Positions 8,915-54,491 of a stretch of DNA of 64,000 bases are shown here, one piece after another (position 1 is the first letter of the stretch; each line of letters begins with the position of its first letter). Source of the DNA: Sulfurimonas hydrogeniphila (lineage in GTDB: Bacteria > Campylobacterota > Campylobacteria > Campylobacterales > Sulfurimonadaceae); assembly GCF_009068765.1 (NCBI RefSeq), contig NZ_CP035534.1:1736001-1800000 (forward strand), written 5' to 3'. Made by a program: the position numbers and the translations under genes. Below the pieces are notes generated by a model. It made no database searches. It saw only the letters and a program-made list of their open reading frames with translations, and was not told where the DNA came from.

Positions 8915-11908
8915 CTAGAGCACTTTTGGTTTGCTGTTTCTTAAATAGTACAGTGTTGCTTTAATAATGTCATCATCATCTTTCGAATCTGATTTTATTG
9001 TCTCCTTGGACTCATTTAAATAGGTAAATGTGATATTTTGTCCATAGTTTGAAATCGTTTTGATTTTTTTCTCCAGGGACAAAAGTTTAATAACCATCAA
9101 TTCAAAAAACTGTTTGGTAGGAATGTCCAATTCGCCAAAACGGTCAATTACCTCTTCTTCTATTTCATAGATCTCCACAGCACTTTCACACTGGGCAAGT
9201 CTTCTGTAGATATCTAAACGCAACCTGTCTTCTTGTACAATTTCATCACTGATAAAAGCGGATATGCTCAGTTTTACATCTACCTTTGCCCGCTCTCCCT
9301 CGGCTGTATTGCTCAACTCTTTTATAGCATCTTCAAGCATTCGAAGATACAGAGAGTAGCCGATATTTTTAATATGTCCGCTTTGTGCATCTCCTACAAG
9401 ATTCCCGCCGCCGCGAATTTCCAAATCATGATGTGCCAGCACAGAACCCGAACCTAAAAAGGAGTTCGATTCTAATGCCAAAAGGCGTTTTTTGGCTTCA
9501 TCTGTCAAATTTTCTTTGTTTTGTACAATAAAATAGGCAAAACCCTCATTGTGTCCACGACCTACACGCCCGCGAAGCTGATGCAAATCTGCTATACCAA
9601 ATCTGTCTGCACCGTCTACAATGATGGTATTGACACGGGGCATATGAATACCGCTCTCAATAATGGAGGTGGCTATCATGACATCATATTCGCCTGCTTC
9701 AAATTTCAGCAGCTCTTTTTCTGTTTCCACTGCCGATATTTTAGAATGCAGCATCAGCATTCTCAAGTCAGGTAACAGGGCCTGCAGTTCTCCCAGTTTT
9801 ATAGGCATATGGTCAATTGAATTGTGCACATAAAAAACCTGACCGCCACGACGAAGTTCTCTCAAAATAACCTCTTTTATCAGCTTTTCATCATACTCTT
9901 TTACAAAAGTCCTTACACCCTGGCGCTCACTCGGCGCTGTCAATAGCTGACTCATTGTTTTTATGGAACTGAGTGCCTGATTGAGTGATCGCGGAATCGG
10001 TGTTGCACTCATAGAGAGCAGATGCACATTATGGTAGAGCTCTTTGATTTTCTCTTTTTGCTTCACGCCAAACTTGTGTTCTTCATCTATAATAACGACG
10101 CCAAGTTTCTTAAATTCCAGTCCAAAAAGCGTATGCGTCCCGACAACACAATCTATTTCACCGCTTGCCAGCCCTTTAATAACTGCATTTTTCTCTTTTG
10201 TGGTGACAAATCTGTCAAGTTTTGCATAACGGATACTCAAATCTTTAAACCGCTCATCCAAAGAACGCCAGTGCTGTGCTGAAAGCAGTGTAGTTGGTAC
10301 AATAAATGCCGACTGATAGCCTGACTTGTAGGCTGCATAAATAGTGTTGAGTGCGATTTCTGTTTTACCAAAACCGACATCTCCGCTTAAAAGTCGGTCC
10401 ATTATATGCCCTGAACTCATTTGTGAGAGTATCTCCTCAACAGCCTGAGTCTGGTCATCTGTATATTCAAAGCCTGAAAGTGCCTGAAACTGCTCCAGCT
10501 CTTTTTTATCCAAAGAAATCTTTGGTGCTTTTATAAGCGCTCTTGCTGCTGCCGTGTTAACAATCTGTCCTGCAATTTCAAGCAGCCTTTTTTTTACCTT
10601 TGCCTTGAGTTTGCCAAAGCTTCCTTTTCCCAGCCTGTCCAGTACAGGTGTCGCACCGCCTCCTGCGATGTAACGGTCAATATAGTCGAGGTTTTCTACA
10701 GGCAGCAGTATTTTATCATCACCGACATATTTAATGACGATAAAGTCTTTGACTCCGCCGAGTATTTCGGTTTTTTCAATTTTTTCAAAGATACCGACAC
10801 CATAATCTTCATGAACTACATAATCACCTGCTTTTAAATCATCCAAAAGAATAGAGGTTTTTCTTCTGCGGCGTTTTTTATCGGCTTTGTTCAGTGATAT
10901 AACCAGCTCATCAGGTGTAATAATATTTAATATATAAGGAGCCTCTACAATGCTTAAACCTGTTGTATCATAAATACCGGCCTGTTTTATTGTCGCATTA
11001 TTTGCAGCAATGAGCGTTACTTTCTTGTTTGGATGTACTTTTAAAAGCTGGGCGGCATTGACAACAACCAACTCTTTGACGGCATCGTTTTCTTCTAACA
11101 ATTCAAGATCAAAAGCATCTCTTGGAAGCTGCGGATTGTTTATACCGTAGGCATCTTTGAGTATATTGTCTAAATTTCTGACAAGTTTGACATTTTTGCC
11201 TGCTAAAAAATTCTCTGCCAATTCATCAAGATGCCAAAAGCCCAAAGAGGCTACATCTTTGTTGAGTGCATCAAATTCACTCTTTTGTATTTTTTGATGC
11301 AAGGCATTGTAGGATGCTTCATCCAGAGCATAAAAAGCACTTCGTATTTCTACACTTTCCAAATCATCGCCGAGGGTTCTTTGTGTTTCAAGGGCAAAGG
11401 ATTTTATTTGTTCTATTTCATTGTCAAAGAGGGAAATTCTTATCGGATTTTCGGAAGAAGGCACAAAAATATCTATAATATCCCCACGATGAGAAATTTC
11501 ACCTGCAACCTGTACCATATCAACAAAAGTGTATCCCCAGTAAAGCATCTGCTCTTTAAACTCTTTGAGATTAATCTCTGAGCCAAATTCAAGCCTCATC
11601 TCACCGAGCAGCTCTTTTTTTGGCAAATGAAAGAGAAGTGTTTTTAAAGGAGATATTACAAGTGGTTTTTTCGCGCAAAAATAGTATGTTCTTAAAGCAA
11701 AACAGAGTTCGTGCAACTCTTCTTTGTAAGAACGCAAATCATCACCGTAACCTGGTCTGAAATCGGGAAAAACAACAACATCCCGTCCAAAAAACTTTGC
11801 TACATTTTCAAGTTCATATGCTTCTTTTGCATCTTCACATACCAAAACTTCAAGGGCATCTTTTTGTGCATTGTTTTTAAAATGATTAAATAAAATTGCC
11901 TGTGACAT
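8915..11908 (-). CDS. mfd: Transcription-repair coupling factor Mfd
   Basis: The 997-residue ATP-dependent translocase that removes RNA polymerase stalled at DNA lesions and recruits UvrA. Domains in order: a UvrB-like N-terminal region, the CarD-like RNA-polymerase-interacting domain (LKAGDYVVHEDYGVGIF), RecG-like translocase modules with Walker A (GDVGFGKTE), DEEH box, SATPIPRSL and GRVGRG motifs, and the C-terminal autoinhibitory TRCF domain. Length is slightly shorter than the E. coli protein, as usual in this phylum. Its ATG shares one base with the bactofilin stop (TAATG). uvrB, its nucleotide-excision repair partner, is at the other end of the window. Confidence 0.97.
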   Translation of the reverse strand: MSQAILFNHFKNNAQKDALEVLVCEDAKEAYELENVAKFFGRDVVVFPDFRPGYGDDLRSYKEELHELCFALRTYYFCAKKPLVISPLKTLLFHLPKKELLGEMRLEFGSEINLKEFKEQMLYWGYTFVDMVQVAGEISHRGDIIDIFVPSSENPIRISLFDNEIEQIKSFALETQRTLGDDLESVEIRSAFYALDEASYNALHQKIQKSEFDALNKDVASLGFWHLDELAENFLAGKNVKLVRNLDNILKDAYGINNPQLPRDAFDLELLEENDAVKELVVVNAAQLLKVHPNKKVTLIAANNATIKQAGIYDTTGLSIVEAPYILNIITPDELVISLNKADKKRRRRKTSILLDDLKAGDYVVHEDYGVGIFEKIEKTEILGGVKDFIVIKYVGDDKILLPVENLDYIDRYIAGGGATPVLDRLGKGSFGKLKAKVKKRLLEIAGQIVNTAAARALIKAPKISLDKKELEQFQALSGFEYTDDQTQAVEEILSQMSSGHIMDRLLSGDVGFGKTEIALNTIYAAYKSGYQSAFIVPTTLLSAQHWRSLDERFKDLSIRYAKLDRFVTTKEKNAVIKGLASGEIDCVVGTHTLFGLEFKKLGVVIIDEEHKFGVKQKEKIKELYHNVHLLSMSATPIPRSLNQALSSIKTMSQLLTAPSERQGVRTFVKEYDEKLIKEVILRELRRGGQVFYVHNSIDHMPIKLGELQALLPDLRMLMLHSKISAVETEKELLKFEAGEYDVMIATSIIESGIHMPRVNTIIVDGADRFGIADLHQLRGRVGRGHNEGFAYFIVQNKENLTDEAKKRLLALESNSFLGSGSVLAHHDLEIRGGGNLVGDAQSGHIKNIGYSLYLRMLEDAIKELSNTAEGERAKVDVKLSISAFISDEIVQEDRLRLDIYRRLAQCESAVEIYEIEEEVIDRFGELDIPTKQFFELMVIKLLSLEKKIKTISNYGQNITFTYLNESKETIKSDSKDDDDIIKATLYYLRNSKPKVL

Positions 11909-40208: not shown

Positions 40209-42908
40209 ATGAAAAACAGCTGGCATGCTCTTCATCAAAAAAAGATATTGGAAACCTTAAGCTCGGATTTGAATAAAGGACTTCAAGAAGATGAGGCAAT
40301 AAAAAGGTACAAACAATATGGTCCGAATCTTTTAAGTGTCAAAAAAACAAAATCTGCACTCCTTCGTTTTTTAAGTCAATTCAATCAGGCACTGGTCTAT
40401 ATTTTGCTGGCGGCTATTGTCATAAAAATATATCTGGGTGCCTACGTTGATGCCAGTGTGATCTTTGGTGTTGTTTTGCTCAATGCCATCATAGGATTCA
40501 TCCAGGAGAACAAAGCACTCAATGCACTGGCCGCTTTGTCAGAGTCTTTAGTTACAGTAAGCACTGTGTTGCGTGGCGGAAAAAAACAGCAGATTGATGC
40601 AAAAAAACTTGTGGTTGGAGATATTGTGTTGCTGCAGTCAGGAGACAAAGTCCCTGCTGATATGCGGCTTCTCTCATCCCGTGAACTGCAGATAGACGAA
40701 TCCGCCCTTACAGGAGAATCAACCCCTGTTTCAAAAACAAATACAATACTTCCCGAAGATGTTTCTCTTGCGGATCGTACCAATATGCTCTATTCGTCAA
40801 CTTTTGTCACATACGGTACAGGCACAGGCGTTGTTGTTGCAACAGGCGATGAGACAGAAATAGGTCATATTTCAAAACTGCTTAATGATGCAACCGTATT
40901 GGATACTCCTTTGACTCGTAAAATATCCAAATTCAGTCATCTCTTGTTATTGGTAATTCTCTTTTTGGCAACAGTCACATTTGCTGTAGGGCTATGGCAC
41001 GGTAAATCCTGGGAAGAGTTGTTTATGGCATCCATTGCACTGAGTGTTGCCATGATACCCGAAGGTCTGCCTGCTGTTATGACAATTATCTTGGCTATCG
41101 GTGTCGCACGCATGGCAAAACGAAATACAATCATTCGCCATCTTCCGGCTGTAGAAACCCTGGGAAGCACCACAATAATCTGTTCAGACAAAACAGGGAC
41201 ATTGACACGCAATGAAATGACCGTCCAGGAACTCTACTGCGCAAATGAGAAATTTGAGATAAGCGGAGTCGGGTATTCACCCGATGGAGAGATCCTCCAA
41301 GAAAACAAAAATTATGACAGCGGCAAGAACCGGACCCTTTTGGAACTCTTCAAAGCAGGAGTTTTATGCAATGATTCCAGACTCAAAAAGAGTGAAAAGG
41401 CATGGAGCATAGAAGGAGATCCTACGGAGGGAGCATTGCTGGTCTGTGCAAAAAAAGCGGCAATAGACACTGACGCATTAAGAGCTGACATGCCAAGGAT
41501 AGATGCGATCCCCTTTGAATCGCAATATCAGTATATGGCAACTCTGCATTTTGACAAAAAAACAAACAAATATATCATTTATGTAAAAGGTTCTGCAGAG
41601 AGTATTACCCAGCGATGCAGTACTGTTTTGGATATAAACGGTGAGCCTGTCCCTCTCGATGAGAATGACATTTTTATGCAGGTGGAGTCTATGGCAAAAA
41701 AAGGCTTAAGGGTCTTGGCCTTTGCCAGACTTGTCATAGAGCACAAAATAACCCTCGAACATGAACATATCTCTCACAATTTGGAGTTTATCGGTCTTCA
41801 GGGTATGATAGATCCGCCAAGAGAAGAGGCAATAATTTCGATTGAAGCATGCAAAACGGCAGGCATAGATGTAAAAATGATTACAGGGGACCATGCCATA
41901 ACAGCCACAGCAATTGCCAGGAAGATGGGATTAATCCATTCTGCGCAAAAAGATGAAAGCAGTGTCGTCATTACAGGAAATGCACTGAATAATTTACAAG
42001 AAAAAGAAATGCTCGAAGCTTCAAAAAATGCTTCGGTATTTGCCAGAGTAACACCGGAACAAAAACTGCGTATCGTCGAAGCCCTCCAAAGGAACAATGA
42101 AATTATTGCAATGACAGGAGACGGTGTCAATGATGCCCCTGCGCTTCGCAGAGCCGATATCGGAATTGCTATGGGGATCACAGGGACAGAAGTTGCCAAG
42201 GAAGCGGCAGATATGGTACTGACTGATGATAATTTTGCTTCTATAGAGGCAGCTGTCGAAGAGGGACGGGCTGTACTGGAAAATATTATCAAGTTTATCG
42301 GTTTCATATTGGCAACAAATCTTGGAGAGGGGCTTGTCATCATGGTTGCTATTTTAGCAAATGTCACACTCCCGATTCTTCCTGTTCAGGCCTTGTGGAT
42401 CAACATGACAGCTGCAGTTTTTCTCGGACTGGCTCTGGCATTTGAACCGCAGGAACCAGGTTTGATGCAAAAACCGCCGCATCCGCCATCTGCTCCGATA
42501 CTAAGAAAAGAGATGCTGATTCGTATCTTTTTGGTGGGTACTATGCTCCTTGGCGGCTCTTTTGGCTTATTTGAACTGGCACTCATGCACGGAAACAGTT
42601 TGGAAGAGGCCCGAACAATAGCAGTCAATGTATTTGCCGTTGGAGAATCTTTTTATTTGCTCAATTCCCGTTCACTGCGTTTTTCCATATTTAAGCTGGG
42701 ACTCTTCAGCAATCTCTGGATATGGATCGGTATTTTTTGCATGATAGGCGCTTCTGTTGCCCTGACATATCTGCCAATTATGAATAAAATGTTTCATACT
42801 GCACCGATCAGTTTGCATGACTGGCTCAATATATTTGCCGTTGGAGTGCTGATTTATGTTACAGTTGCCATTGAAAAAATAGTTCGGCAGCGGTATTCAA
42901 GCATATAA
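40209..42908 (+). CDS. P2-type cation-transporting ATPase (Ca2+-ATPase-like)
   Basis: An 899-residue P-type ATPase. Domain order is normal: N-terminal cation-ATPase domain, actuator domain with LTGESTPV, helix 4 with IPEGLPAVM, phosphorylation site CSDKTGTLTRNEM with the acceptor Asp, nucleotide domain and hinge TGDGVNDAPAL, then six C-terminal helices. PEGLP in helix 4 places it in the P2 group (Ca2+, Na+/K+ or H+-like). The exact ion cannot be told from this. It has no heavy-metal-binding N-terminal domain. It stands alone, 45 bases before the export cluster. Confidence 0.93.
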   Translation: MKNSWHALHQKKILETLSSDLNKGLQEDEAIKRYKQYGPNLLSVKKTKSALLRFLSQFNQALVYILLAAIVIKIYLGAYVDASVIFGVVLLNAIIGFIQENKALNALAALSESLVTVSTVLRGGKKQQIDAKKLVVGDIVLLQSGDKVPADMRLLSSRELQIDESALTGESTPVSKTNTILPEDVSLADRTNMLYSSTFVTYGTGTGVVVATGDETEIGHISKLLNDATVLDTPLTRKISKFSHLLLLVILFLATVTFAVGLWHGKSWEELFMASIALSVAMIPEGLPAVMTIILAIGVARMAKRNTIIRHLPAVETLGSTTIICSDKTGTLTRNEMTVQELYCANEKFEISGVGYSPDGEILQENKNYDSGKNRTLLELFKAGVLCNDSRLKKSEKAWSIEGDPTEGALLVCAKKAAIDTDALRADMPRIDAIPFESQYQYMATLHFDKKTNKYIIYVKGSAESITQRCSTVLDINGEPVPLDENDIFMQVESMAKKGLRVLAFARLVIEHKITLEHEHISHNLEFIGLQGMIDPPREEAIISIEACKTAGIDVKMITGDHAITATAIARKMGLIHSAQKDESSVVITGNALNNLQEKEMLEASKNASVFARVTPEQKLRIVEALQRNNEIIAMTGDGVNDAPALRRADIGIAMGITGTEVAKEAADMVLTDDNFASIEAAVEEGRAVLENIIKFIGFILATNLGEGLVIMVAILANVTLPILPVQALWINMTAAVFLGLALAFEPQEPGLMQKPPHPPSAPILRKEMLIRIFLVGTMLLGGSFGLFELALMHGNSLEEARTIAVNVFAVGESFYLLNSRSLRFSIFKLGLFSNLWIWIGIFCMIGASVALTYLPIMNKMFHTAPISLHDWLNIFAVGVLIYVTVAIEKIVRQRYSSI

Positions 42909-42953: not shown

Positions 42954-43916
42954 ATGACAAACGAAGAAATTTTTAGTAATGTTTTCAAGCAGCTCAAAAG
43001 TATTGCATCAAAAGATAAAAAAAATATTTTTTATCTTCTGTACTATTCTGTTATTGAAGCAATTTTACTGCTTGTGAGTCCGTTGACCTCAGCATTTATT
43101 ATTAACAGCGTACTGGCGCATGCTTCTATCTCCATCACTGTCTTAAGCATTGTCGTAATTGTCATTTTTTCACTTATTGCAATTTTGCAAGTCATAAAAG
43201 AGTACATCATAGAAAAATTTGAACAAAAAATATTTGTAAAAAATGCCATTAAAGTCTCTGAACTTGCGATCAACAATAAAAACAACCTTCAAAACAAAGA
43301 TAAAATCGACAAATATATGAACTACTTTTTTGATGTTGTACACATACAGAAACTTTTTCCGATTTTGCTCCTCAATGGTTCCAGCCTTATTATCAAGGTT
43401 GTCATAAGCCTGCTGCTTCTTCTTCTGTTTGATGTTTCCTTCTTTGTACTGGGCGTGGTTTTTATAATTATATTTGCGATTATGATTTTATTTTTAGGAA
43501 GAAAAAGCCCAAAAAATGCAGTCGCACGGTCTGATGCAAAACATAATGCCATATACTTTTTGCAAAGTATTCCCTTCTTAAACGATACAAGCCAAAGCAT
43601 ATCATCCAGACTGGATGGATATCTGACAAAATACATTTCAAAAAGACAGCAAATGTTTGCAATAATCATCAAACAGGTTGCGCTTACTTTTGTTACAGAA
43701 GGATTTATTTTGGCATCCTTCTTCATTTTGGGCGGTTATCTTGTTTTTGAAGGCATTGTCCCTATTGGAGAGTTCGTTGCAGCTGAGATCCTCATTATCT
43801 CTGTTGTCGGTGCCCTAAAAGAGTTTATTGAAAAAATAGATTATATTTATGACATGATTGAGGGTTTTTACAAAATCGACAAACTCTCTAAAGTCTTTGA
43901 AAGTGAAGAAACGTGA
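42954..43916 (+). CDS. ABC exporter-like membrane protein lacking an ATPase domain
   Basis: A 320-residue protein with about six predicted helices arranged like the type-1 ABC exporter membrane domain: helix pairs near residues 25-70, 140-180 and 240-285, with long charged loops between. The nucleotide-binding domain that normally follows in one chain is absent. The stop codon overlaps the HlyD-type gene start by four bases, and no Walker A motif was found in any frame nearby. The next two genes encode a HlyD adaptor and a TolC outer membrane protein. It either borrows an ATPase from elsewhere or works without one. Confidence 0.7.
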   Translation: MTNEEIFSNVFKQLKSIASKDKKNIFYLLYYSVIEAILLLVSPLTSAFIINSVLAHASISITVLSIVVIVIFSLIAILQVIKEYIIEKFEQKIFVKNAIKVSELAINNKNNLQNKDKIDKYMNYFFDVVHIQKLFPILLLNGSSLIIKVVISLLLLLLFDVSFFVLGVVFIIIFAIMILFLGRKSPKNAVARSDAKHNAIYFLQSIPFLNDTSQSISSRLDGYLTKYISKRQQMFAIIIKQVALTFVTEGFILASFFILGGYLVFEGIVPIGEFVAAEILIISVVGALKEFIEKIDYIYDMIEGFYKIDKLSKVFESEET

Positions 43917-45193
43917 AAAAATACAAATCATTGGAACTCGTCGAACCACATAAGTTTATAAAACACTGGATGCTTATTACCTTCTCTATTATATCAATTT
44001 TCATAGTTTTGCTTTTTTTGCCATGGCAACAAACTGTTTTCGGTATAGGAAAAGTAATCGCATTAAACCCTACTGAACGGGAGTACAACATAGTTGCAAC
44101 CGTTGATGGCGTAATAGAGAAGTTTTATGTGCAAGAAAATCAGGAAGTCAAAAAAGGGGAACTTCTTTTTTCAATGAGAGATTTGGACAAAGATTATCTG
44201 CAAAGGCTCCAGGATATCCAACAGCAGACACAAAACCAGATAAGCAATCTTACAATTAAACTTGAAAATCTAAAAAACAACCTCACCAATCAAAAAGAAA
44301 ACCTTGAAAACAAAATGAAAGCTTTTACTACAAAAATATCACAGCAAAGAAACAAAATCCTTGCTCTGCAGGAGAAAAAAACCGCACTGACCAACCAGGA
44401 AAAAATTGCCTTTATCAACTTTAAAAGAACGCAAAAACTTTTTCAAGACGGTATAGAATCAAAAAGAGCACTGGAGGTACAAAACAATGCGTACATATCA
44501 ACCAAAGCAGAACTTTCAATAATAAACACAAAAATAGAAAATGCCTACAAAGAGATATCAGTACTCCAAAATGAAAAAGATGCGATTTTCAATACACTGA
44601 CACAAAAGATAAACACCATAAAAAACAGATTGCTGGAAACAAAGAACAGCATAAATACACTTAAAAAGAATCTGCAAAACGAAAGTGTAAAACTTCTGCG
44701 CTATGAGAATAAAGACATTAAAGCCAAATCGGATGGTTATGTGGTCAGAATCTATCAAAATGACACAAACAAACTTCTCAAAAAAGGGGAGAAGATTCTC
44801 TTTTTTGTTCCAAAAGTAACAACAAGGGCCATCCGCCTTGAAGTCTCCAACTTCAATATGCCGCTTATTAAAAAAGGACTTGAAGCCCGTATAATATTTT
44901 ACGGATGGCCCGCTCTGCAGATTTCCGGATGGCCAAAAATCTCTCACGGAACATACGGCGGAAAAATTGCCACAACAGAACAAACGGCATATGATCAGAA
45001 TAACTACTATGCACTTGTTGTAGAAAATGAAAAAGACAGCAAATGGCCTCCGTCACATCTTTTAAGAAACGGAACACAGGCAAAGATATGGGTACGGCTC
45101 TCAACGGTTCCTATCTGGTATGAAATATGGAGACTCATATCGGCACAACCGCCAAAAATGGTCCATGTAAAAATAGATGAATCGAGTTTTTAA
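43913..45193 (+). CDS. HlyD-family periplasmic adaptor (membrane fusion protein)
   Basis: A 426-residue adaptor: one N-terminal membrane helix (about residues 21-41), the biotinyl/lipoyl half-motif around DGVIEKFYVQENQEVKKGELLF, a long coiled-coil hairpin (about 95-265, rich in Lys, Gln, Asn) and a beta-barrel C-terminal part with second lipoyl half AKSDGYVVRIYQ. It should bridge the inner membrane protein upstream to TolC downstream. The start is GTG, overlapping the upstream stop. A SGWPKISHG/TYGGKI segment suits type I secretion adaptors more than RND efflux adaptors. Confidence 0.85.
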   Translation: MKKYKSLELVEPHKFIKHWMLITFSIISIFIVLLFLPWQQTVFGIGKVIALNPTEREYNIVATVDGVIEKFYVQENQEVKKGELLFSMRDLDKDYLQRLQDIQQQTQNQISNLTIKLENLKNNLTNQKENLENKMKAFTTKISQQRNKILALQEKKTALTNQEKIAFINFKRTQKLFQDGIESKRALEVQNNAYISTKAELSIINTKIENAYKEISVLQNEKDAIFNTLTQKINTIKNRLLETKNSINTLKKNLQNESVKLLRYENKDIKAKSDGYVVRIYQNDTNKLLKKGEKILFFVPKVTTRAIRLEVSNFNMPLIKKGLEARIIFYGWPALQISGWPKISHGTYGGKIATTEQTAYDQNNYYALVVENEKDSKWPPSHLLRNGTQAKIWVRLSTVPIWYEIWRLISAQPPKMVHVKIDESSF

Positions 45194-46537
45194 ATGCAGA
45201 TAAAAAGCTTGCTTATCGTTCTTTTATGCAGTTACGGTTTTGCCCAGGAAGTATTTATCCAAAAAGACATCATAAACTATTTTAATGAAAAAAACCCTTT
45301 TTACTACGAAAAAGTGGGTGATATTTACATTAAAGAATACAATGAAATTTTCTACAAGGGTGCTTTTGATATAAAACTTGATGCAAACTATGAAAAAAAA
45401 GAGTACCCGCTCTCTACAGCAGAGTTTACAAAAGCAGGACTCAGGCAGTCTCTTGGAAACGGAGTGGAATTTTCAGCCGCATACAGAAAAGCAACAGGAA
45501 CACAAGAGTACAACAACATAAAAACATCCAAAGAGGGAGAAGCCATTGTCAACCTGCATCTTCCAGTTTTCAATATCATTAACAGCATCAGCAAAAACCA
45601 AAAGAATCTCTCTCTTGCCCAACAAAAGACAAAAATAGCAAAACTGCAATCACAGGACAAAATCATCAAATTTTATCTTGATGTATCAAAGCTCTATTAT
45701 AAACTTTTACTTCACAAAGAACTGCTCCAAGCAAACAGAGAACTTCTCAACAAAGCATATATTAATTTTGCGTTTATTGACAAAAGTATTCAAACCGGAA
45801 AATTGCCGCAAATAGCATTAACAGAGATAGAAAGTGAAATTATCAACAGAAAACAGAGAGTTGTACTGACAAATATGCAGTTTCAAAAAGTTTTTTACTC
45901 TTTTTTGCAATATCTCAATATTAGCAAAAAAGATTTTGATGCCAAGTATACACTTCCGGAATTGCCAAAGCAAAGTTCTTTGGAGCTGCTGCAGGATCAA
46001 GCAGTTCAAACAGCCTTTAAAAACAGTTTGCTTCTCAAAGCGTTACATGTAAAGGAAAAAGAAATAACAATTAAACAAAAGTACAATGAAGTCAAAAAGT
46101 ACCCAAAACTGGATGTCAATTTTTATGGTGTCTATGATTTGCAATACAAAGAAGGGTACAAAGCTACTTTTGATTTCAATCTTCCTTTACAGCGAAGTTC
46201 CTACAAAGGACAAAAAGGTGCCTATACAAAAGAAACGCTTTTGCTGCAAAACAGGATAGCACTCCAAAAGAGCAAACTAAGAACGGCCATCATTACAGTA
46301 CTGCAGGAGATAAAAACAAAAAAAGAGATTATAAATCTTGCAAAAAAAGAGGTGACTCTTAAACAGAAAGTTGAAGATGCGCAAAGAAGACGCTACAAGC
46401 TTGGCATAGGAAACCTGCTTACGCTCAACCAAAGAGAGATCATAACACTTCAGGCAAAACAAAAACTCCTCAGTGAATACTATAAACTTATAGAAAAAGA
46501 GCTGGAATTAAAATACATTCTAAGGGAGCCGCTGTGA
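45194..46537 (+). CDS. TolC-family outer membrane efflux protein
   Basis: A 447-residue outer membrane channel. The signal peptide (about residues 1-18) ends in GFAQEV. The body shows the two long helical repeats of the OEP family, rich in Lys/Gln, with TGKLPQIALTEIES in the first and RYKLGIGNLLTLNQRE in the second. It starts directly after the HlyD stop, completing a tripartite envelope-spanning export set. Confidence 0.85.
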   Translation: MQIKSLLIVLLCSYGFAQEVFIQKDIINYFNEKNPFYYEKVGDIYIKEYNEIFYKGAFDIKLDANYEKKEYPLSTAEFTKAGLRQSLGNGVEFSAAYRKATGTQEYNNIKTSKEGEAIVNLHLPVFNIINSISKNQKNLSLAQQKTKIAKLQSQDKIIKFYLDVSKLYYKLLLHKELLQANRELLNKAYINFAFIDKSIQTGKLPQIALTEIESEIINRKQRVVLTNMQFQKVFYSFLQYLNISKKDFDAKYTLPELPKQSSLELLQDQAVQTAFKNSLLLKALHVKEKEITIKQKYNEVKKYPKLDVNFYGVYDLQYKEGYKATFDFNLPLQRSSYKGQKGAYTKETLLLQNRIALQKSKLRTAIITVLQEIKTKKEIINLAKKEVTLKQKVEDAQRRRYKLGIGNLLTLNQREIITLQAKQKLLSEYYKLIEKELELKYILREPL

Positions 46538-46595
46538 ATCTTTTTAAAATATTGAGAAAAAAGTGTACAATGTTATTATACAAGGTGGTCATACT

Positions 46596-47117
46596 ATGAA
46601 AAATATTCAGATTGGAACCCGTTTTCTCTTTGTTCTTTCCAAAAGAATGTTTTTATTTTTTATTATTTGGATAATACTGGCAGACGGCGACATCTCTTCT
46701 CTTTGGATTGGCGTTCCTGCTGTATTGCTCTCATCCATAATCAGTCTTATCCTTGTTCCTCCTGTCTTTTGGAACTTTACTGCATTCCTGAAATTTATTC
46801 CGTTTTATCTTATACGCTCTCTTTTGGGAGGATTTGATGTCATGTTGCGTGTTTTTCATCCGGCTCTTCCGATAAACCCTGGTTTGCTAAAGTATCAGCT
46901 GCATCTTCCAAAAGGAGTACAGCAGGATATGATTGTCAATGTATTAAACCTGCTTCCGGGTACACTTTCAGTAGAAATTGAAAATAATTTGTTGTTGATT
47001 CATGTTTTGGATATTGGCAAAAATATCAAACAAGAGGTCCTGCTCATTGAAGATTATATCAATGAGATATTTTCCAAAAAGACCAACACTCAAGGTAGTT
47101 CAAATGAAAAGATTTAA
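46596..47117 (+). CDS. Na+/H+ antiporter (Mrp-type) subunit E
   Basis: A 173-residue membrane protein of the MnhE/MrpE family: two to three N-terminal helices, then a cytosolic domain with NVLNLLPGTLSVEI, the family signature, and HVLDIG. The AAGGTGG ribosome-binding site supports this ATG over an upstream GTG. It opens the antiporter operon, 58 bases after the TolC gene, with a TACAAT/TATTAT stretch between that could be its promoter. Subunit E does not form the ion path but is needed for assembly in studied Mrp complexes. Confidence 0.88.
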   Translation: MKNIQIGTRFLFVLSKRMFLFFIIWIILADGDISSLWIGVPAVLLSSIISLILVPPVFWNFTAFLKFIPFYLIRSLLGGFDVMLRVFHPALPINPGLLKYQLHLPKGVQQDMIVNVLNLLPGTLSVEIENNLLLIHVLDIGKNIKQEVLLIEDYINEIFSKKTNTQGSSNEKI

Positions 47118-48078
47118 AAACATACTCTGCATTATTGAAGATACACAAGCGAGCCAAAGCATTTTGCAACGCGCTGTCAAGTTGGCAACAGACAATCAGG
47201 CAAAACTGACAGTTGCGAGTGTTATTAGCAACTCAAAAGCCAGTTTTGGTATTTTGAAAAACTTTTTGGATATGGATGTAAAAACTCTTTTAAAAAAAGA
47301 AAAAACAAAAGAGCTTAAAGATTTGACACAGACTGTTTCAAACCAGTCAGATATTAAAATTAAAGTATTTTTCGGAACACCTTTTTATGAGATAATCTAT
47401 CATGTTTTGCTAGACAATTATGATCTGGTCATCAAAATGCCGGAAAATGCAAGTTGGATGCATCGATTGTTCGGGAGCAATGATATGCATCTTTTACGAA
47501 AATGTCCATGTCCGGTTTGGTTTATCAAAAAAAACAGCCCTGAATCTTTCAATCATATCATGGCTGCTGTCGATGTAAATATTGACACTGAAACGGAAGA
47601 AGAACCAGATACACAGGAAAAGCTAAACCATCAAATTCTTCAAATAGCAAGCTCTCTTGCTGTCAGCGAGTTAGCCCAATTACATGTACTGCATGTATGG
47701 GATGCTCCAGAAACAGCACTCATGCAGGGTGCATTTATAAAGATGCCGGATTCAGAAGTTATTAAATATGCACAGGAGATGCAGCATCTGCATGATTCAA
47801 AGCTGCAAGCACTCTTACGTGATGCAGCACATACGCAAATCGGTGATATGTTAAAATTTCTAAAACCGAATATTCATCTGCTGCGAGGTTTGCCAAATAA
47901 AATCATTCCCCAGTTTGCCCAAAAACTGCAAATTGATTTGATTGTTATGGGCACTGTCGCGCGAACAGGTTTGGCCGGAGTCATTATGGGAAATACAGCA
48001 GAAGACATACTCAACCAGATAGACTGTTCGGTTCTTGCCATCAAGCCTCCGGGATTTAAAACTCCTATATCCCTGTAG
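47104..48078 (+). CDS. Universal stress protein with two UspA domains
   Basis: A 324-residue tandem UspA protein. The second domain ends with VMGTVARTGLAGVIMGNTAE, which has the G-x2-G-x9-G-N/S/T-like ATP-binding pattern. The first domain lacks a clear version of it and is probably degenerate. It has no membrane segment and should be cytosolic. The ATG lies 14 bases before the end of subunit E and has AAGGT upstream, so it is a true member of the antiporter operon. This suggests nucleotide- or stress-dependent control of the complex. Confidence 0.88.
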   Translation: MKRFKNILCIIEDTQASQSILQRAVKLATDNQAKLTVASVISNSKASFGILKNFLDMDVKTLLKKEKTKELKDLTQTVSNQSDIKIKVFFGTPFYEIIYHVLLDNYDLVIKMPENASWMHRLFGSNDMHLLRKCPCPVWFIKKNSPESFNHIMAAVDVNIDTETEEEPDTQEKLNHQILQIASSLAVSELAQLHVLHVWDAPETALMQGAFIKMPDSEVIKYAQEMQHLHDSKLQALLRDAAHTQIGDMLKFLKPNIHLLRGLPNKIIPQFAQKLQIDLIVMGTVARTGLAGVIMGNTAEDILNQIDCSVLAIKPPGFKTPISL

Positions 48079-48086
48079 GTATGCAA

Positions 48087-48368
48087 ATGATGAATATTAT
48101 CTATACAGGTCTTGTAGTATTTTTGTTTCTAAACCTTATTGCAGGCATATGGCGTCTTGCCTATGGTCCGACAAATGAAGACAGAATCTTGGCATCACAG
48201 TTATTTGGTACGATTGCCATCATTATTTTGCTTTTGCTTTCGCAAATAAACGGACATGCCGCTTTGCGCAACATAGCACTGCTTTTTGCTTCACTCGCTG
48301 CTGTCACTGCAATAGCCTTTGTCCAAAGCAGTAGCAGAAAAAAACACAAAAGGCATGAAAATGATTGA
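48087..48368 (+). CDS. Mrp-type antiporter subunit F
   Basis: A 93-residue three-helix protein of the MnhF/MrpF family, with the LAYGPTNEDRILASQ segment between helices 1 and 2 that is diagnostic. Of three clustered ATGs, the second has TAGG at seven-base spacing and is used here; the first would be only two residues longer. It overlaps subunit G by eight bases. Confidence 0.88.
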   Translation: MMNIIYTGLVVFLFLNLIAGIWRLAYGPTNEDRILASQLFGTIAIIILLLLSQINGHAALRNIALLFASLAAVTAIAFVQSSSRKKHKRHEND

Positions 48369-48654
48369 CATTCTCTCTATCATATTTCTCCTGTTCGGAG
48401 CAGTTTTCTTTTTAGCCGGCACAGTCGGGCTTTTACGGCTGCCGGATGTTTATACCCGATTGCATGCTTTGACAAAAGCTGACAATATCGGTGTCGGTTT
48501 CATTGTACTTGCACTCTGTTTGCAGGCAGATTCGTTCTTTGAGATAGAAAAACTGCTGCTTATCTGGTTTTTGGTTTTTTTGGCAGGAGCAGGTGTCTCA
48601 CATTTAATCGCAAAAAACGCATTTCGCAACGGAATAAAAATATGGAAACGTTAG
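48361..48654 (+). CDS. Mrp-type antiporter subunit G
   Basis: A 97-residue protein of the MnhG/MrpG family with three helices. The signature LLRLPDVYTRLHALTKADNIG between helices 1 and 2 is complete. An AAGG lies seven bases before the ATG chosen; another ATG two codons earlier is too close to that site. It overlaps the MbhD-like gene by 13 bases. Confidence 0.9.
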   Translation: MIDILSIIFLLFGAVFFLAGTVGLLRLPDVYTRLHALTKADNIGVGFIVLALCLQADSFFEIEKLLLIWFLVFLAGAGVSHLIAKNAFRNGIKIWKR

Positions 48655-48905
48655 CAATCGTAGAATTTGTCTTTGACATGTTACTCTCAAGTTCATTGTT
48701 GTTTGTTGCCTATAAAACACTTACATGTAAAGACTTGTTTCAGGCTATTGTCTTTTTTATCGTCTTTGGTTTGTTAATATCTGTTGCATGGGGACGGTTG
48801 GGTGCTTACGATGTTGCTATGGCCGAAGTGGTTATTGGTGCCGGACTTACAGGGGCACTGCTGTTAAGTGCTTTGGTCAAACTCAAGAAAATGAATATAG
48901 ATTAA
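48642..48905 (+). CDS. MbhD/DUF4040-like antiporter subunit
   Basis: An 87-residue three-helix protein resembling the MbhD (DUF4040) domain, which in most Mrp systems is fused to the C-terminal end of the large MrpA subunit. The key segment GLLISVAWGRLGAYDVAMAEVVIGAGLTGALLL includes a membrane Glu important in this family. Here it stands as its own gene, as in Mbh/Mbs-type complexes of archaea. Confidence 0.82.
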   Translation: METLAIVEFVFDMLLSSSLLFVAYKTLTCKDLFQAIVFFIVFGLLISVAWGRLGAYDVAMAEVVIGAGLTGALLLSALVKLKKMNID

Positions 48906-48925
48906 AACAAGAGAGGGTATAAAGT

Positions 48926-49585
48926 ATGGTACGTTTTTTTACATTCATTTTAACAGCCCTTCTTTTTGCAGGCTTAACGTATACCGTTTTATCTTTACCT
49001 CAACAGACACAGGGTCTTGCCCAAACAGTAGGCTCACAAATGCAAAACAGCGGTGTTTCCAATCCTGTAACAGCGGTATTGATGAACTTCCGTGCCTATG
49101 ACACCCTCCTTGAGATGGCGGTTTTGTTTATTGCTCTTTTGGGAGTTTATTCATTGGGCAGTTCAGCAAGAGAGGCGAAGTCTCTTTTAAAAAGTCCTGT
49201 ATTAAAAAGATTGGGAGGGATTTTGGTTCCTGTATTGCTTTTGCTGAGTGCTTATATTTTATGGATTGGAGCACAGGCTCCAGGCGGTGCTTTTCAGGCC
49301 GGTTCTATTTTAAGTGCTACTGGAATTTTAATCTTTTTAAGCGGGTGGAAACTTGATTTGTCTTATAAAAATTTCTTTGTACGACTTCTTGCAAGTACAG
49401 GTTTGCTTGCTTTTGTTCTTGTTTCGGCAATCACACTACTGTTTTCTGATACACTTCTTGAATTTTCTGCAACAGAGGCTTCTTATTTCATTTTTATTCT
49501 TGAAGCCGCTGCAACTGTTTCAATAGCAATAACTCTGTTTAATCTTTTTTTTACTATTTTTGCACAACCAAAGGAAGAGAAGTGA
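48926..49585 (+). CDS. Mrp-type antiporter subunit B (MbhE plus MnhB domains)
   Basis: A 219-residue membrane protein. The first 90 residues (an N-terminal helix, then a helix starting YDTLLEMAVLFIALLG) correspond to the MbhE part that in MrpA-type systems ends subunit A. The remainder is MnhB-like, with APGGAFQAGSILSATGILIFL, the family signature. Its stop overlaps the subunit C GTG start (GTGA). Confidence 0.85.
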   Translation: MVRFFTFILTALLFAGLTYTVLSLPQQTQGLAQTVGSQMQNSGVSNPVTAVLMNFRAYDTLLEMAVLFIALLGVYSLGSSAREAKSLLKSPVLKRLGGILVPVLLLLSAYILWIGAQAPGGAFQAGSILSATGILIFLSGWKLDLSYKNFFVRLLASTGLLAFVLVSAITLLFSDTLLEFSATEASYFIFILEAAATVSIAITLFNLFFTIFAQPKEEK

Positions 49586-49890
49586 GCACACTGTTTTTCT
49601 ATGCTGTCGCTGGAATCGGACTTTTTTGTACAGGTTTGTATACACTCATTGTACAGGCCCATCTTTTGCGAAAACTGCTTGCCATAAACATTATGGGAAG
49701 CGGTGTTTTTCTTTTACTTGTCTCCCTCTCCATGCGCACTGCAGGCACACAGCCGGACCCGGTACCGCATGCCATGGTCATTACGGGGATAGTTGTTGCT
49801 ATATCCGCAACAGCCCTGGCCCTGGTTTTTATGATAAAAATTGCATTAAAAACAGGCAAAGCAGAGCTTTCAAGCCTGGAAGAAAAGTGA
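49582..49890 (+). CDS. Mrp-type antiporter subunit C (NuoK-like)
   Basis: A 102-residue three-helix protein of the MnhC/NuoK family. Helix 2 begins LAINIMGSGVFLLLVS and the next loop has the TQPDPVPHAMVITGIVVAISATALAL segment typical of MnhC. The start is GTG with AAGGAAGAGA upstream. Its final base is the first base of the next ATG. Confidence 0.9.
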   Translation: MSTLFFYAVAGIGLFCTGLYTLIVQAHLLRKLLAINIMGSGVFLLLVSLSMRTAGTQPDPVPHAMVITGIVVAISATALALVFMIKIALKTGKAELSSLEEK

Positions 49891-51356
49891 TGTATTTAAA
49901 ACTTGTATTAGCAACCCCTTGGGAAGTTTTTTTGATTTTATTGCCGATTTTAGGAGGATTATTCTCTTTTCTTTTGCCGAAATTCAATAAAGCTATCGGT
50001 ATTTCCACACTCATACTCACACTCTTTTTTGTAGTTTTTATTGCTCTGAAACTACGTACGCAAGGTGCTTTTTATCATCTTGTAGGCGGCTGGGATGCAC
50101 CCTTGGGTATAAACCTTTACATAGACGGTTTAAGTCTTGTTATGCTTGGACTGACTGCACTCATCGGAGTCGGAGCAAGTGTCTATGCAGGAAAATATTT
50201 TACGCAGACACAGTCTCTTTGGTTTTGGCCAATCTGGCTGTTTCTCATAGCCGGGATTAATGCTCTTTTCTTATCGCAGGATATCTTTAATTTTTATGTA
50301 ACTTTGGAACTTATCGGACTGGCCTCTGCTGCCCTGACTGCTTTGAGCAATACAAAAGAGGCACTGACAGGAGCTATGCGGTATTTGTTAGTGACACTGC
50401 TTGGCTCGCTTGCTTATCTTTTAGGCGTCGCTCTGTTGTATCATGGTTTTGGAAGTGTAGATATTGCCATTCTTTCAAATACAATAGAATCTACCCCTGC
50501 AGCATGGGCTGCAATGGGTCTGATGAGTGCCGGTTTGCTTCTTAAAAGCGCTCTTTTTCCTTTGCATTTCTGGCTTCCGCCTGCACATGCCAGTGCTCCT
50601 GCCCCTATAAGTGCAGTATTGTCGGCGCTCATCATCAAAGCTTCCATATATATACAGCTGCGCTTATGGATATCTCTTTTTTTTCCTCTGCATAATTTTT
50701 ATTTTGAAATATTTTTTGCTGTACTTGGATCCATAGCCGTTTTATGGGGCTCCGTTCAGGCACTTGTGCAGACTCGGCTGAAACTGCTCATAGCCTACTC
50801 CACAGTAGCGCAGGTAGGCTATCTTTTTCTTGCTTTTTCTTTGGCTTTGGGAGGGGTGTCTGTAGCATGGAGCGCACTTATCTATCTTATGCTCTCACAT
50901 GCACTGGCAAAAAGTGCTTTGTTCCTTGTAGCAGGAAATTTATTGCATTTTCACGGGCATGACCGTATCATTGATTTGGACCGTATTGCACAAAGGCTTC
51001 CTTTGAGTACTGCTGCTTTTGCTTTAGCGGGAGTGAGTATTATCGGATTACCCCTCAGTGGCGGTTTTATAGGCAAATGGTTTCTCCTTGAAGCATCACT
51101 TGCAGACAACAACTGGGGAATAACCGCAGTAGTTCTTCTGGGCGGATTGTTGGCTGCAGGATATATTTTCAAGGTTTTAGGGTTCACTTTTACAAAGACC
51201 ACTCGTACACAAAAGGCACAAAACATTCCTCTCTCAATGGAACTTGTACCTCTGTGTCTTGCGATAATGGCAATTTTGACAGGTTTTTTTGCCACACCAC
51301 TGCTTTCGCTGATACATATCGGAAATCCTTTTGGAAACATTGGAGCAGCCCCGTGA
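49890..51356 (+). CDS. Proton-translocating antiporter subunit, first NuoL/M/N-like (MrpD type)
   Basis: A 488-residue, about 14-helix protein of the complex I/Mrp antiporter-like family. The ion-path residues are present: Glu140 in helix 5 (DIFNFYVTLEL), Lys in KSALFPLHFWLP of helix 7 with nearby His, and Lys in GGFIGKWFL of helix 12. It carries a WDAPLGI segment near the N-terminus like MrpD. No MrpA-type C-terminal extension is attached. Confidence 0.87.
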   Translation: MYLKLVLATPWEVFLILLPILGGLFSFLLPKFNKAIGISTLILTLFFVVFIALKLRTQGAFYHLVGGWDAPLGINLYIDGLSLVMLGLTALIGVGASVYAGKYFTQTQSLWFWPIWLFLIAGINALFLSQDIFNFYVTLELIGLASAALTALSNTKEALTGAMRYLLVTLLGSLAYLLGVALLYHGFGSVDIAILSNTIESTPAAWAAMGLMSAGLLLKSALFPLHFWLPPAHASAPAPISAVLSALIIKASIYIQLRLWISLFFPLHNFYFEIFFAVLGSIAVLWGSVQALVQTRLKLLIAYSTVAQVGYLFLAFSLALGGVSVAWSALIYLMLSHALAKSALFLVAGNLLHFHGHDRIIDLDRIAQRLPLSTAAFALAGVSIIGLPLSGGFIGKWFLLEASLADNNWGITAVVLLGGLLAAGYIFKVLGFTFTKTTRTQKAQNIPLSMELVPLCLAIMAILTGFFATPLLSLIHIGNPFGNIGAAP

Positions 51357-52846
51357 GTTTTAACACATACATTCCCCTGTTTGTAGTTTTAAGTTCATTT
51401 CTGCCTGCTCTGATAATCTTCAGACTTTCAGAAAAGCAACATACTCTTCGTACACTTTTGAACCTTTCAGGGATTTTTATAACACTTGTTTTAGTCATAT
51501 GGATGTTTGTCGGTGTCTATTACGGAGAACATTATGAAATACGTTTTGCGCTTATCCAGAATCTTGATATCAGTTTGCGTGCCGGACCTTTTGCTCTTTT
51601 TTTTACAGGGCTTTCAAGTGTTTTGTGGTTTATAACCACAATCTATGCTATTGGTTATCTGGAGGGATCTGCGCATAGCAGCCGTTTTTTCGGGTTTTTC
51701 AATCTTTGTATTACGGCCACTATTGGCATTGCCTTATCCGGAAACCTCATCACTTTTTTGCTTTTTTATGAAATACTGACACTTTCTGCCTACCCTCTTA
51801 TTATCCATAGAGGTACTGAAGAGTCCCGTCTTGCAGGCAGCAGATACCTTCTCTATACTCTGATTGGAGGTGCCTTGTTATTGCTGGGAACAGTATGGCT
51901 TTATACATTAACCGGTACACTTGAGTTTACGCCAAAAGGATTTGTGCAAACAATACTGCAAGAGCATTCTTCGGCTCTTGTAATAATTTTCATCCTTTTA
52001 ATTGCAGGATTCGGTGTCAAAGCAGCACTCTTTCCTCTGCATGGATGGCTGCCGCAAGCCATGGTGGCTCCGGCACCGGTAAGTGCTCTCTTGCATGCAG
52101 TCGCCGTTGTCAAAGCAGGAGCATTCGGTATAGTACGCGTTGTATATGAAGTATACGGACTTGAAACAGCAGCTTTTCTTGGTTTGACAACACCTCTGGC
52201 TGTTATAGCTTCCATCACTATCATATACGGCTCTCTCAGAGCACTTTTTCAGGATAATCTCAAACGAAGGCTGGCTTTTTCTACAATAAGCCAGGTTTCT
52301 TATATCATCCTTGGTATTGCCATAGTGGGTCCCATCGCAACAACAGGGGGAATTATACATCTTGTGCACCAAGGTGTTATGAAAATCACTCTCTTTTTTG
52401 GAGCAGGAAATTTTGCAGAAACACTTGGCGTATATCAGGTAAGCCAAATGAACGGCATCGCAAAACGCATGCCCTGGACTATGGTGTCTTTTACTATCGG
52501 CGCCCTTGGCATGATCGGTATACCTCCGATTGCAGGATTTATTACGAAATGGTACCTGGGACTTGGTGCTTTGGAATCCGGGCAGGGGTGGGTAATAGCT
52601 GTACTTGCTGCGAGCAGTCTCCTGAATGCAGGATACTTTTTACCTATACTTTATCGAGCATGGTTTTTGGCACCTCCAAAATCCTGGCCTGATGAACATA
52701 ATTTTTCAAAAGGGGAAACAAAACTCAGTCTCTTATGGCCGCCGCTTATTACAGCATTTTTTGCTCTTTCTTTTGGTCTGTTCGCCGCTTCTCCCTGGAG
52801 TCCTTTAGCATGGGTGCATCTCATTACCCAGCGGGAGTTTTTTTAA
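51353..52846 (+). CDS. Proton-translocating antiporter subunit, second NuoL/M/N-like
   Basis: A 497-residue, about 14-helix family member. Glu140 (FLLFYEILTL), Lys in GVKAALFPLHGWLPQA and Lys in GFITKWYLG are all present, so it should carry protons or Na+. The GTG start overlaps the previous stop (GTGA) and has GGAG upstream; the frame is open 33 codons further but that part is out of family. YAIGYLEGS and HRGTEESRLAGSRYLLYTLIGG resemble the MrpA/NuoL N-terminal half. Confidence 0.87.
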   Translation: MSFNTYIPLFVVLSSFLPALIIFRLSEKQHTLRTLLNLSGIFITLVLVIWMFVGVYYGEHYEIRFALIQNLDISLRAGPFALFFTGLSSVLWFITTIYAIGYLEGSAHSSRFFGFFNLCITATIGIALSGNLITFLLFYEILTLSAYPLIIHRGTEESRLAGSRYLLYTLIGGALLLLGTVWLYTLTGTLEFTPKGFVQTILQEHSSALVIIFILLIAGFGVKAALFPLHGWLPQAMVAPAPVSALLHAVAVVKAGAFGIVRVVYEVYGLETAAFLGLTTPLAVIASITIIYGSLRALFQDNLKRRLAFSTISQVSYIILGIAIVGPIATTGGIIHLVHQGVMKITLFFGAGNFAETLGVYQVSQMNGIAKRMPWTMVSFTIGALGMIGIPPIAGFITKWYLGLGALESGQGWVIAVLAASSLLNAGYFLPILYRAWFLAPPKSWPDEHNFSKGETKLSLLWPPLITAFFALSFGLFAASPWSPLAWVHLITQREFF

Positions 52847-52847
52847 A

Positions 52848-54491
52848 ATGTATGAAACGTCTGTAAACAGCCTGCTCTTATTGGGTGTACTCTGGCCTCT
52901 AATGCTGGTTCCCCTGTTGTCTCTAAAAAAAATCCGTCCTATAACTTTATCGCTTGCTGCATGGGCAGGTATCCCTGCACTTTTTGCCGCTTTACTTGTC
53001 TCGCCTAGCATCGCTCATTGGAATTTTCCATGGTTGCTTCTTGGTATGAAAATCGGACTCGATGCCACAGGAACTCTTTTTTTGCTTGACAGTGCACTCC
53101 TTTGGTCTGTTGCCGGCATCTACACAAAAGCATATTTTTCCAAAGAAGACAGACAGATCTCTTTTTATAGTTTTTTTCTGCTTGCAATGGCCGGAAACTT
53201 TGGACTTGTAATATCTCAGGATATTTTCAGCTTTTATCTTTTTTTTACTTTAATGAGCTTTGCTTCATATGGACTTGTCGTCTTTAATAAAGACAAGGAA
53301 GCCTTTGATGCAGGATTAGTCTATATAATTTTGGTTGTTATTGGCGAAGTGATGCTTTTTGTTGCTTTTTTATTACTGGCGCAGACATCTGATGTAACTT
53401 CATTTGAATCTGTACGAACAGGATTTATAAACAACCCGAATAAAAATTTAGTAATCCTGTTGCTTTTTACTGCTTTTGGTATAAAGGCAGGGATTATCGG
53501 TTTACATGTATGGCTGCCTCTTGCGCATCCCGTAGCGCCCACACCTGCAAGTGCAGTTCTCTCCGGTGCAATGATAAATGCCGGACTTTTGGGATGGTTG
53601 CGATTCCTTCCATTAGGAGAGATCATCTCCCTCTACTGGGCAGCAGGCATTATACTTTTAGGTCTTTTAGCACAATTTTACGGAGTCATTATAGGCTTGA
53701 CACAACGTAATCCCAAAACACTTTTAGCCTATTCAAGCATAAGCCAGATGGGGATTATGACTATGCTTATAGGTTTTGGATTTTATCTGCCTGAGCATTG
53801 GAAGAGTATCTTGGCCGGTATCACTTTTTTTGCTTTGCATCATGGCCTCAGCAAAGGAGCTCTTTTTTTAGGTGTCGGCATGCTTGGCAGCACAAATAAA
53901 CTGCAAAGATATGCGATATGGCTCGGACTCTGTATACCTGCTCTTGCATTGGCAGCTGTGCCCTATAGCAGCGGCATGACAGCAAAATATTTGGTAAAAA
54001 GTTATACCGCGTACTTTGCAGCACCTTGGAGCAGTATGCTTTCCGTACTTCTTGTTATCGGCACTGTAAATACAACATTGCTTATGATAAGATTGCTGTA
54101 TTTGGTTCGGCCGGCTGCAGCTCCTTTTGGGGTCAGTACAAGTTTTTCTCTGCTTTGGCCTTGGATTTTGCTTCTTGCAGGCATTCTCTCTTTGCCATTT
54201 TCTTTAGACTTTTCTGTAGAAATTATGAGAGAGCTGAATGCCCTCCCTTTCCTGTACCCCTTGTTTTTGAGCATCTTTATCACTCTTTTTATAAGGAAAA
54301 TAAAAAAGTTTCAAAATATAAAACCTGTACCGGCAGGTGATATAGTCCTTTACTATGAAAAAGTTCTTCTTTTCTTAATCAGAAATGGCAAAAAATTTAA
54401 TTTTATTTTGCTTTACTACACTCGCTTTCTCTCTTTTTTAACTGCCAAAATCACAAAATTCTCAGATAAAATAGCAGCATGGATAAAATAA
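52848..54491 (+). CDS. Antiporter-like subunit, third NuoL/M/N-like, missing the helix-5 glutamate
   Basis: A 547-residue, 14-helix family member with an extra C-terminal helix and a Lys-rich tail. The helix-7 Lys (GIKAGIIGLHVWLP) and helix-12 Lys (SGMTAKYLVKSY) are present. Position 134, which aligns with Glu140 of the two preceding subunits, is Thr (SQDIFSFYLFFT). The frame and surroundings are clean, so the change is not caused by an indel. The subunit may be structural or use a different ion route. Confidence 0.85.
   Translation: MYETSVNSLLLLGVLWPLMLVPLLSLKKIRPITLSLAAWAGIPALFAALLVSPSIAHWNFPWLLLGMKIGLDATGTLFLLDSALLWSVAGIYTKAYFSKEDRQISFYSFFLLAMAGNFGLVISQDIFSFYLFFTLMSFASYGLVVFNKDKEAFDAGLVYIILVVIGEVMLFVAFLLLAQTSDVTSFESVRTGFINNPNKNLVILLLFTAFGIKAGIIGLHVWLPLAHPVAPTPASAVLSGAMINAGLLGWLRFLPLGEIISLYWAAGIILLGLLAQFYGVIIGLTQRNPKTLLAYSSISQMGIMTMLIGFGFYLPEHWKSILAGITFFALHHGLSKGALFLGVGMLGSTNKLQRYAIWLGLCIPALALAAVPYSSGMTAKYLVKSYTAYFAAPWSSMLSVLLVIGTVNTTLLMIRLLYLVRPAAAPFGVSTSFSLLWPWILLLAGILSLPFSLDFSVEIMRELNALPFLYPLFLSIFITLFIRKIKKFQNIKPVPAGDIVLYYEKVLLFLIRNGKKFNFILLYYTRFLSFLTAKITKFSDKIAAWIK

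Follow-up and report, generated by a model that had tools for sequence, protein, structure and literature searches.

ABC exporters are regarded as working through ATP hydrolysis by their nucleotide-binding domain (NBD), and a three-gene set in Sulfurimonas hydrogeniphila raises the long-running question of whether the transmembrane domain (TMD) of such an exporter can transport alone, and with what energy. The set occupies positions 42954-46537 of the window, by which the whole 64-kb stretch of DNA analysed is meant, and encodes on the + strand a 320-aa NBD-less protein with six TM helices (42954..43916), a HlyD-family periplasmic adaptor of 426 aa with a GTG start (43913..45193), and a TolC-family outer-membrane efflux protein of 447 aa (45194..46537). 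The TMD gene overlaps hlyD by 4 bases, the TolC-family gene abuts hlyD with zero gap, and the three genes are translationally coupled. The sequence-only reading had described exactly this arrangement of an ABC-type six-helix protein, HlyD and TolC, and it was confirmed by the open reading frames (ORFs), the Pfam matches and the fold model. The adaptor matched HlyD_3 (PF13437; 25.1 bits against a cut-off of 22.2) and, at an E value of 1.9e-19 that nevertheless fell under the curated cut-off, TIGR01843 of NCBIfam; the family alignment assigned it to the GWPxLQxSGWP...WYExWR subgroup of HlyD. The TolC-family protein matched OEP (PF02321) with 72.3 bits against a cut-off of 22.

The 320-aa protein had no Pfam match at all. 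In NCBIfam it matched NHLM_ABC1 (E 4.7e-9, profile positions 140-450 of 710), and this match was confined to the TMD part of the peptidase/ABC exporters. AlphaFold2, supplied with a 75-sequence family alignment, modelled the protein as the six-helix TMD of a type-1 exporter (pLDDT 91, pTM 0.84), with PrtD (the best Foldseek match), ComA, HlyB and PCAT1 as the closest solved folds and a Z of 26.9 across 308 residues of HlyB 8dck in VIA-align. The protein is thus predicted by the model to be a type-1 ABC exporter TMD that stops where the NBD would be expected to start. There is no space for a frameshifted NBD between the TMD gene and hlyD, and no NBD-like ORF exists across the whole window; Walker A, Walker B, signature, Q-loop and H-loop are all absent here; the earlier claim of a missing NBD without a visible frameshift held as well.

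A recent truncation, which full-length homologues in close relatives would have revealed, was looked for and ruled out, since every complete homologue in the genus and phylum (approximately 317-364 aa) is NBD-less. The TMD alignment has 24 intact Campylobacterota-type inner-membrane copies, among them that of an Aquificota MAG, and all of them lack the domain. The three-gene cassette is present in six further genomes of the same genus, with TMD proteins of 317-350 aa that are 44-63% identical and in flanking contexts that are mostly dissimilar; counting its own genome, an intact cassette was found in 7 of the 37 genomes of the genus searched. Searched with a profile, 397 Campylobacterota genomes gave six strong matches, the window's own among them, all six NBD-less, and the weaker matches were other proteins.

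A second possibility is that the set is what remains of a type I secretion system in decay, in favour of which stand the patchy distribution of the cassette and a 52-aa relic of the TMD gene in one genome (G010, locus L051, near 9936-10097), whose position is syntenic with that of the intact cassettes in L046, L057 and L059. That relic marks a recent loss, and the two observations together mean that the cassette is dispensable. Decay as a general account is refuted and all but excluded, however, because the genes carry no frameshifts or stops, the identical NBD-less form recurs in distant genera and in the Aquificota MAG, and the NBD was lost independently at least three times with the other domains retained. 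In four close NBD-less pairs the dN/dS of the TMD was 0.032, 0.072, 0.081 and 0.070, with similarly low values for HlyD, showing that the NBD-less TMD is under purifying selection. Within the same-genus cassettes the TMD is in fact more conserved than its two partners (identities of 44-63%; HlyD reaches 38-51% and TolC 34-40%).

Scanning GTDB contigs with the HlyD alignment yielded at least 577 confirmed relatives, of which the best 80 were retained, and the family HlyD was present in 53 of the 198 Bacteroidota genomes drawn. Three layouts occur ahead of or at this HlyD. An NBD-less TMD precedes it in all Campylobacterota examined and in one Aquificota MAG and, separately, in the Spirosomataceae (Spirosoma, Larkinella, Rudanella and Arsenicibacter). 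In Spirochaetota and two deltaproteobacterial MAGs the TMD is fused directly to HlyD as one chain through a short linker, and the NBD is missing (L073:112-2349, L090:585-2831, L091:2-2161 and L111:6618-9278). The third layout places a TMD-NBD protein ahead of HlyD. By neighbour clustering a TolC-family gene is the third member in 88 loci, and the three-gene set is a conserved one; no relative of it was found on viral contigs. The model of the fused TMD-HlyD protein was weak (pLDDT 77, pTM 0.39) and too poor to judge the packing of TMD against HlyD. Homologues of about 724 aa, such as that of L133, carry an N-terminal domain of about 140 aa (L133:5762-6190) with no Pfam match, which by appearance only may resemble a divergent C39-peptidase-like domain as in HlyB.

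While a fused ATPase is absent in the Campylobacterota, the homologues elsewhere revealed something beyond the sequence-only reading, namely that the NBDs remaining across the family are degenerate and that the domain has been lost several times. The scoring covered six hallmarks (Walker A, Q-loop, SGG, Walker B Asp, catalytic Glu and H-loop), and 55 family NBDs reached 0-4 of 6 against 5-6 for 19 canonical NBDs taken from the S. hydrogeniphila genome and its relatives. The canonical reference was chosen by Walker A and SGG, which biases these two hallmarks in its favour and leaves Q, E and H unbiased. A second sample of 33 NBDs from genome searches, mostly from Bacteroidota, retained Walker A in 32 of 33, SGG in 4, the catalytic Glu in 2 and the H-loop in 2, and the most intact family NBDs were those of Melainabacteria and Methylomonas members. 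In all 74 family pairs with TMD identity of at least 65%, the NBD was more diverged than its own TMD (divergence ratio 1.84), in contrast to MsbA-type controls, in which the NBD was better conserved than the TMD in 166 of 202 pairs (ratio 0.83). The pairs in both counts are not independent and MsbA is a different family, yet the contrast remains strong.

Phylogenetic analysis addressed how often the domain disappeared. On the TMD tree the NBD state must change three times, each change being forced by branches with good support, and the tree of HlyD, an independent marker, requires four changes, three of them forced; a single NBD-less clade was rejected on the HlyD tree (delta lnL 273.6, AU p 3e-51). 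Complete loss of the NBD therefore occurred on three or more occasions: in Campylobacterota, in Spirosomataceae, and in the Spirochaetota/deltaproteobacterial group in which TMD and HlyD form one chain. The deep long-branch joins of the fused group, L123 and the outgroup are uncertain, and the NBD-less groups of Campylobacterota and Spirosomataceae are clearly separate.

The sequence-only reading had left two alternatives, a distant ATPase that joins in or a set driven another way. According to the first, the NBD-less TMD would be energised either by a stand-alone NBD or by pairing with a full ABC half-transporter as a heterodimer. The genome contains about 30 PF00005 matches, some importers use shared or distant NBDs, and the Spirosomataceae retain a docking loop of full length (41-42 residues). 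The second intracellular loop (ICL2) of type-1 exporters docks on the NBD. Against a partner in trans, ICL2 measures 42 residues between two fixed columns in 48 of 48 NBD-bearing proteins, versus 36-37 in all 24 Campylobacterota-type copies and 33-38 in four fused TMD-HlyD proteins, and that of the 320-aa protein is 6 residues shorter than in all aligned NBD-bearing homologues; the length of ICL1 also varies in the Campylobacterota-type and fused groups. Only one NBD-less or fused locus, L067, has an NBD ORF in its flanks, several kilobases off and on the opposite strand. The ten stand-alone NBDs of the genome that were scanned gave their best matches to the NBDs of other systems (LptB, FtsE/LolD-like, MlaF-like and importer types), and the two read in context each adjoin their own permease genes. 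SecA was ruled out as a motor, a single copy being present in each of the seven genomes checked that carry NBD-less or fused systems. Given the short docking loop, the lack of an adjoining NBD gene, the fit of the NBDs to other systems and the single SecA, an ATPase in trans is unlikely, although it is not excluded, above all in Spirosomataceae. The second alternative is favoured and remains unproven.

The reading that we prefer, with a probability of roughly 0.6, is that the set forms an ATP-independent trans-envelope exporter or conduit, of which the assembly of the complex, the transport, the proton coupling, the class of cargo and the direction are all inferred. The ancestor was an exporter TMD with a fused NBD, whose catalytic motifs were lost in this family before the domain was deleted in several lineages, that of S. 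hydrogeniphila included. TMD dimers, HlyD and TolC would build a trans-envelope complex of type-1-secretion architecture without ATP hydrolysis, in which the TMD would still alternate or gate. Export by the TMD would be secondary-active or facilitative, drawing on the proton-motive force or on the gradient of the substrate itself. HlyD and TolC would then receive the cargo, which is more likely a small molecule or lipid than an RTX protein. Three HlyB dimers with six HlyD is the stoichiometry described for HlyB/HlyD (PMC11026475), and the 1:1 TMD-HlyD fusions agree with it.

Precedent for such a mechanism comes from engineered proteins, as LmrA and MsbA deleted of their NBDs are reported to export in a proton-coupled manner and, in the case of LmrA, to require E314 of TM6 for the dependence on delta-pH (PMC2704374, PMC4979069). 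Across 82 aligned TMDs with or without an NBD, Q132, K133, S193, K196, G260, G272, A276 and E278 are invariant in 82 of 82, P43 is invariant where covered, and E87, R231 and K307 are near-invariant; D300 is counted among the invariant or near-invariant charged or polar residues. E278 sits in the first part of TM6 in the AlphaFold2 model, at a position that is Q or N in the closest canonical exporters compared. It is inferred to be a candidate proton-coupling residue, on evidence that is indirect and rests on conservation only, without placement in a cavity and with its equivalence to LmrA E314 unestablished.

The sequence-only reading had seen no cargo gene with a C-terminal secretion signal beside the set, and indeed no RTX nonapeptide occurs in the 64-kb window and neighbour clustering detected no conserved cargo gene family; an unlinked or non-RTX cargo remains possible. 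Nor is any conserved cargo or partner found beside the cassette in Campylobacterota, where the flanks vary among most genomes. In 25 Bacteroidota loci, NBD-bearing and NBD-less alike, a TetR-family regulator adjoins the set (e.g. L104:6123-6833), codirectional in the NBD-bearing loci and divergent in the NBD-less Spirosomataceae, from which a small-molecule substrate may be inferred.

A non-transporting TMD would leave a similar sequence record, which is a point against the preferred reading and brings in a scaffold or passive conduit as a possible rival. Here the TMD would merely anchor and oligomerise HlyD, and the HlyD-TolC duct or tether would be loaded from the periplasm or the membrane. 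Anchoring would suit the TMD-HlyD fusions, the adaptor and TolC are almost always retained, and no energising partner is visible. Contrarily, HlyD has a TM anchor of its own, a six-helix domain of 320 aa is a costly anchor, and the conservation of E87, Q132, K133, S193, K196, R231, E278, D300 and K307 suggests mechanism over packing. The exporter reading is further weakened by the lack of any measurement of transport, substrate or energy coupling, by the absence of a conserved cargo gene that would point to the substrate, by the patchiness and dispensability of the cassette, and by the origin of the LmrA-MD and MsbA-MD results in one line of work on engineered proteins. A bolder version, to which we give rather less credence than to its negation, holds that a widespread tripartite family gave up ATP hydrolysis and became proton-driven trans-envelope pumps, discarding the dead NBD at least three times and sometimes fusing the TMD to the adaptor. 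Were it true, these pumps would add one more energy class of tripartite systems to ABC, RND and MFS, and would be a natural example of the disputed view that ABC TMDs are in essence secondary transporters.

Among known systems, type I secretion (HlyB-HlyD-TolC, PrtD and the LapB/NHLM exporters) is similar in its type-1 TMD fold, HlyD and TolC in a tight operon, and the present set meets three of its features, namely the exporter TMD, the HlyD-family fusion protein and the TolC-family channel. It differs in lacking the C39 domain, any RTX cargo that could be seen, and the ATP-hydrolysing NBD, which is found neither in the protein nor in the window and is degenerate in the homologues. Because this ATPase feature was tested and is unmet, the set is not a strict member of type I secretion. 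LmrA-MD and MsbA-MD share the exporter TMD without an NBD and the TMD carboxylates, and are reportedly proton-coupled secondary transporters (PMC2704374, PMC4979069), but they are engineered and stand alone, unlike a natural set of repeated origin that is accompanied by HlyD and TolC. Type I ABC exporters with one degenerate nucleotide-binding site have likewise lost catalytic NBD motifs while keeping the fold; they retain one working site (PMC7756269), whereas all the family NBDs examined here lack key motifs and several lineages are NBD-free. The SecA_DEAD-HlyD-TolC module of Planctomycetes and others also combines HlyD/OEP genes without an ABC ATPase, but it has secondary SecA and M50-like proteins (PMC4452313), while the present set has a real exporter TMD and the secondary SecA_DEAD protein is absent from all seven genomes checked, each of which has an NBD-less or fused set. 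The set is a variant of the tripartite/type-1-secretion architecture and, on the preferred reading, a natural counterpart of the engineered LmrA-MD and MsbA-MD. No earlier description of the family was found in the open literature searched, a scope that largely leaves out subscription journals. A natural family in which the NBD decayed and was then repeatedly lost, with selection on the TMD and the partners kept, makes the question posed at the outset directly testable, and the single-chain TMD-HlyD versions would be convenient for structural studies of the inner-membrane half of tripartite machines.

Several observations concern the surroundings of the set. The only PADLOC match, to LmuB over a coiled coil, was judged spurious, and a defence system was rejected. 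A transcriptome of Sulfurovum indicum is reported to show induction of TolC/HlyD genes on elemental sulfur (PMC10045233), and their membership in this exporter family is not established. Upstream on the same strand lies a gene for a cation-transporting P-type ATPase of 899 aa (40209-42908), ending 46 bp before the TMD gene; its role as a functional partner is unsupported, as none of the relatives examined has it next to the cassette. Subunit genes of a Na+/H+ antiporter (Mnh/Mrp-type) follow downstream at 46563-54491, beginning with an MnhE-like gene (46563-47117), and a partnership is unsupported here as well, since in most relatives they do not accompany the cassette. An exception is MAG L070, which shares homologous Mnh-type genes downstream of its own copy of the cassette.
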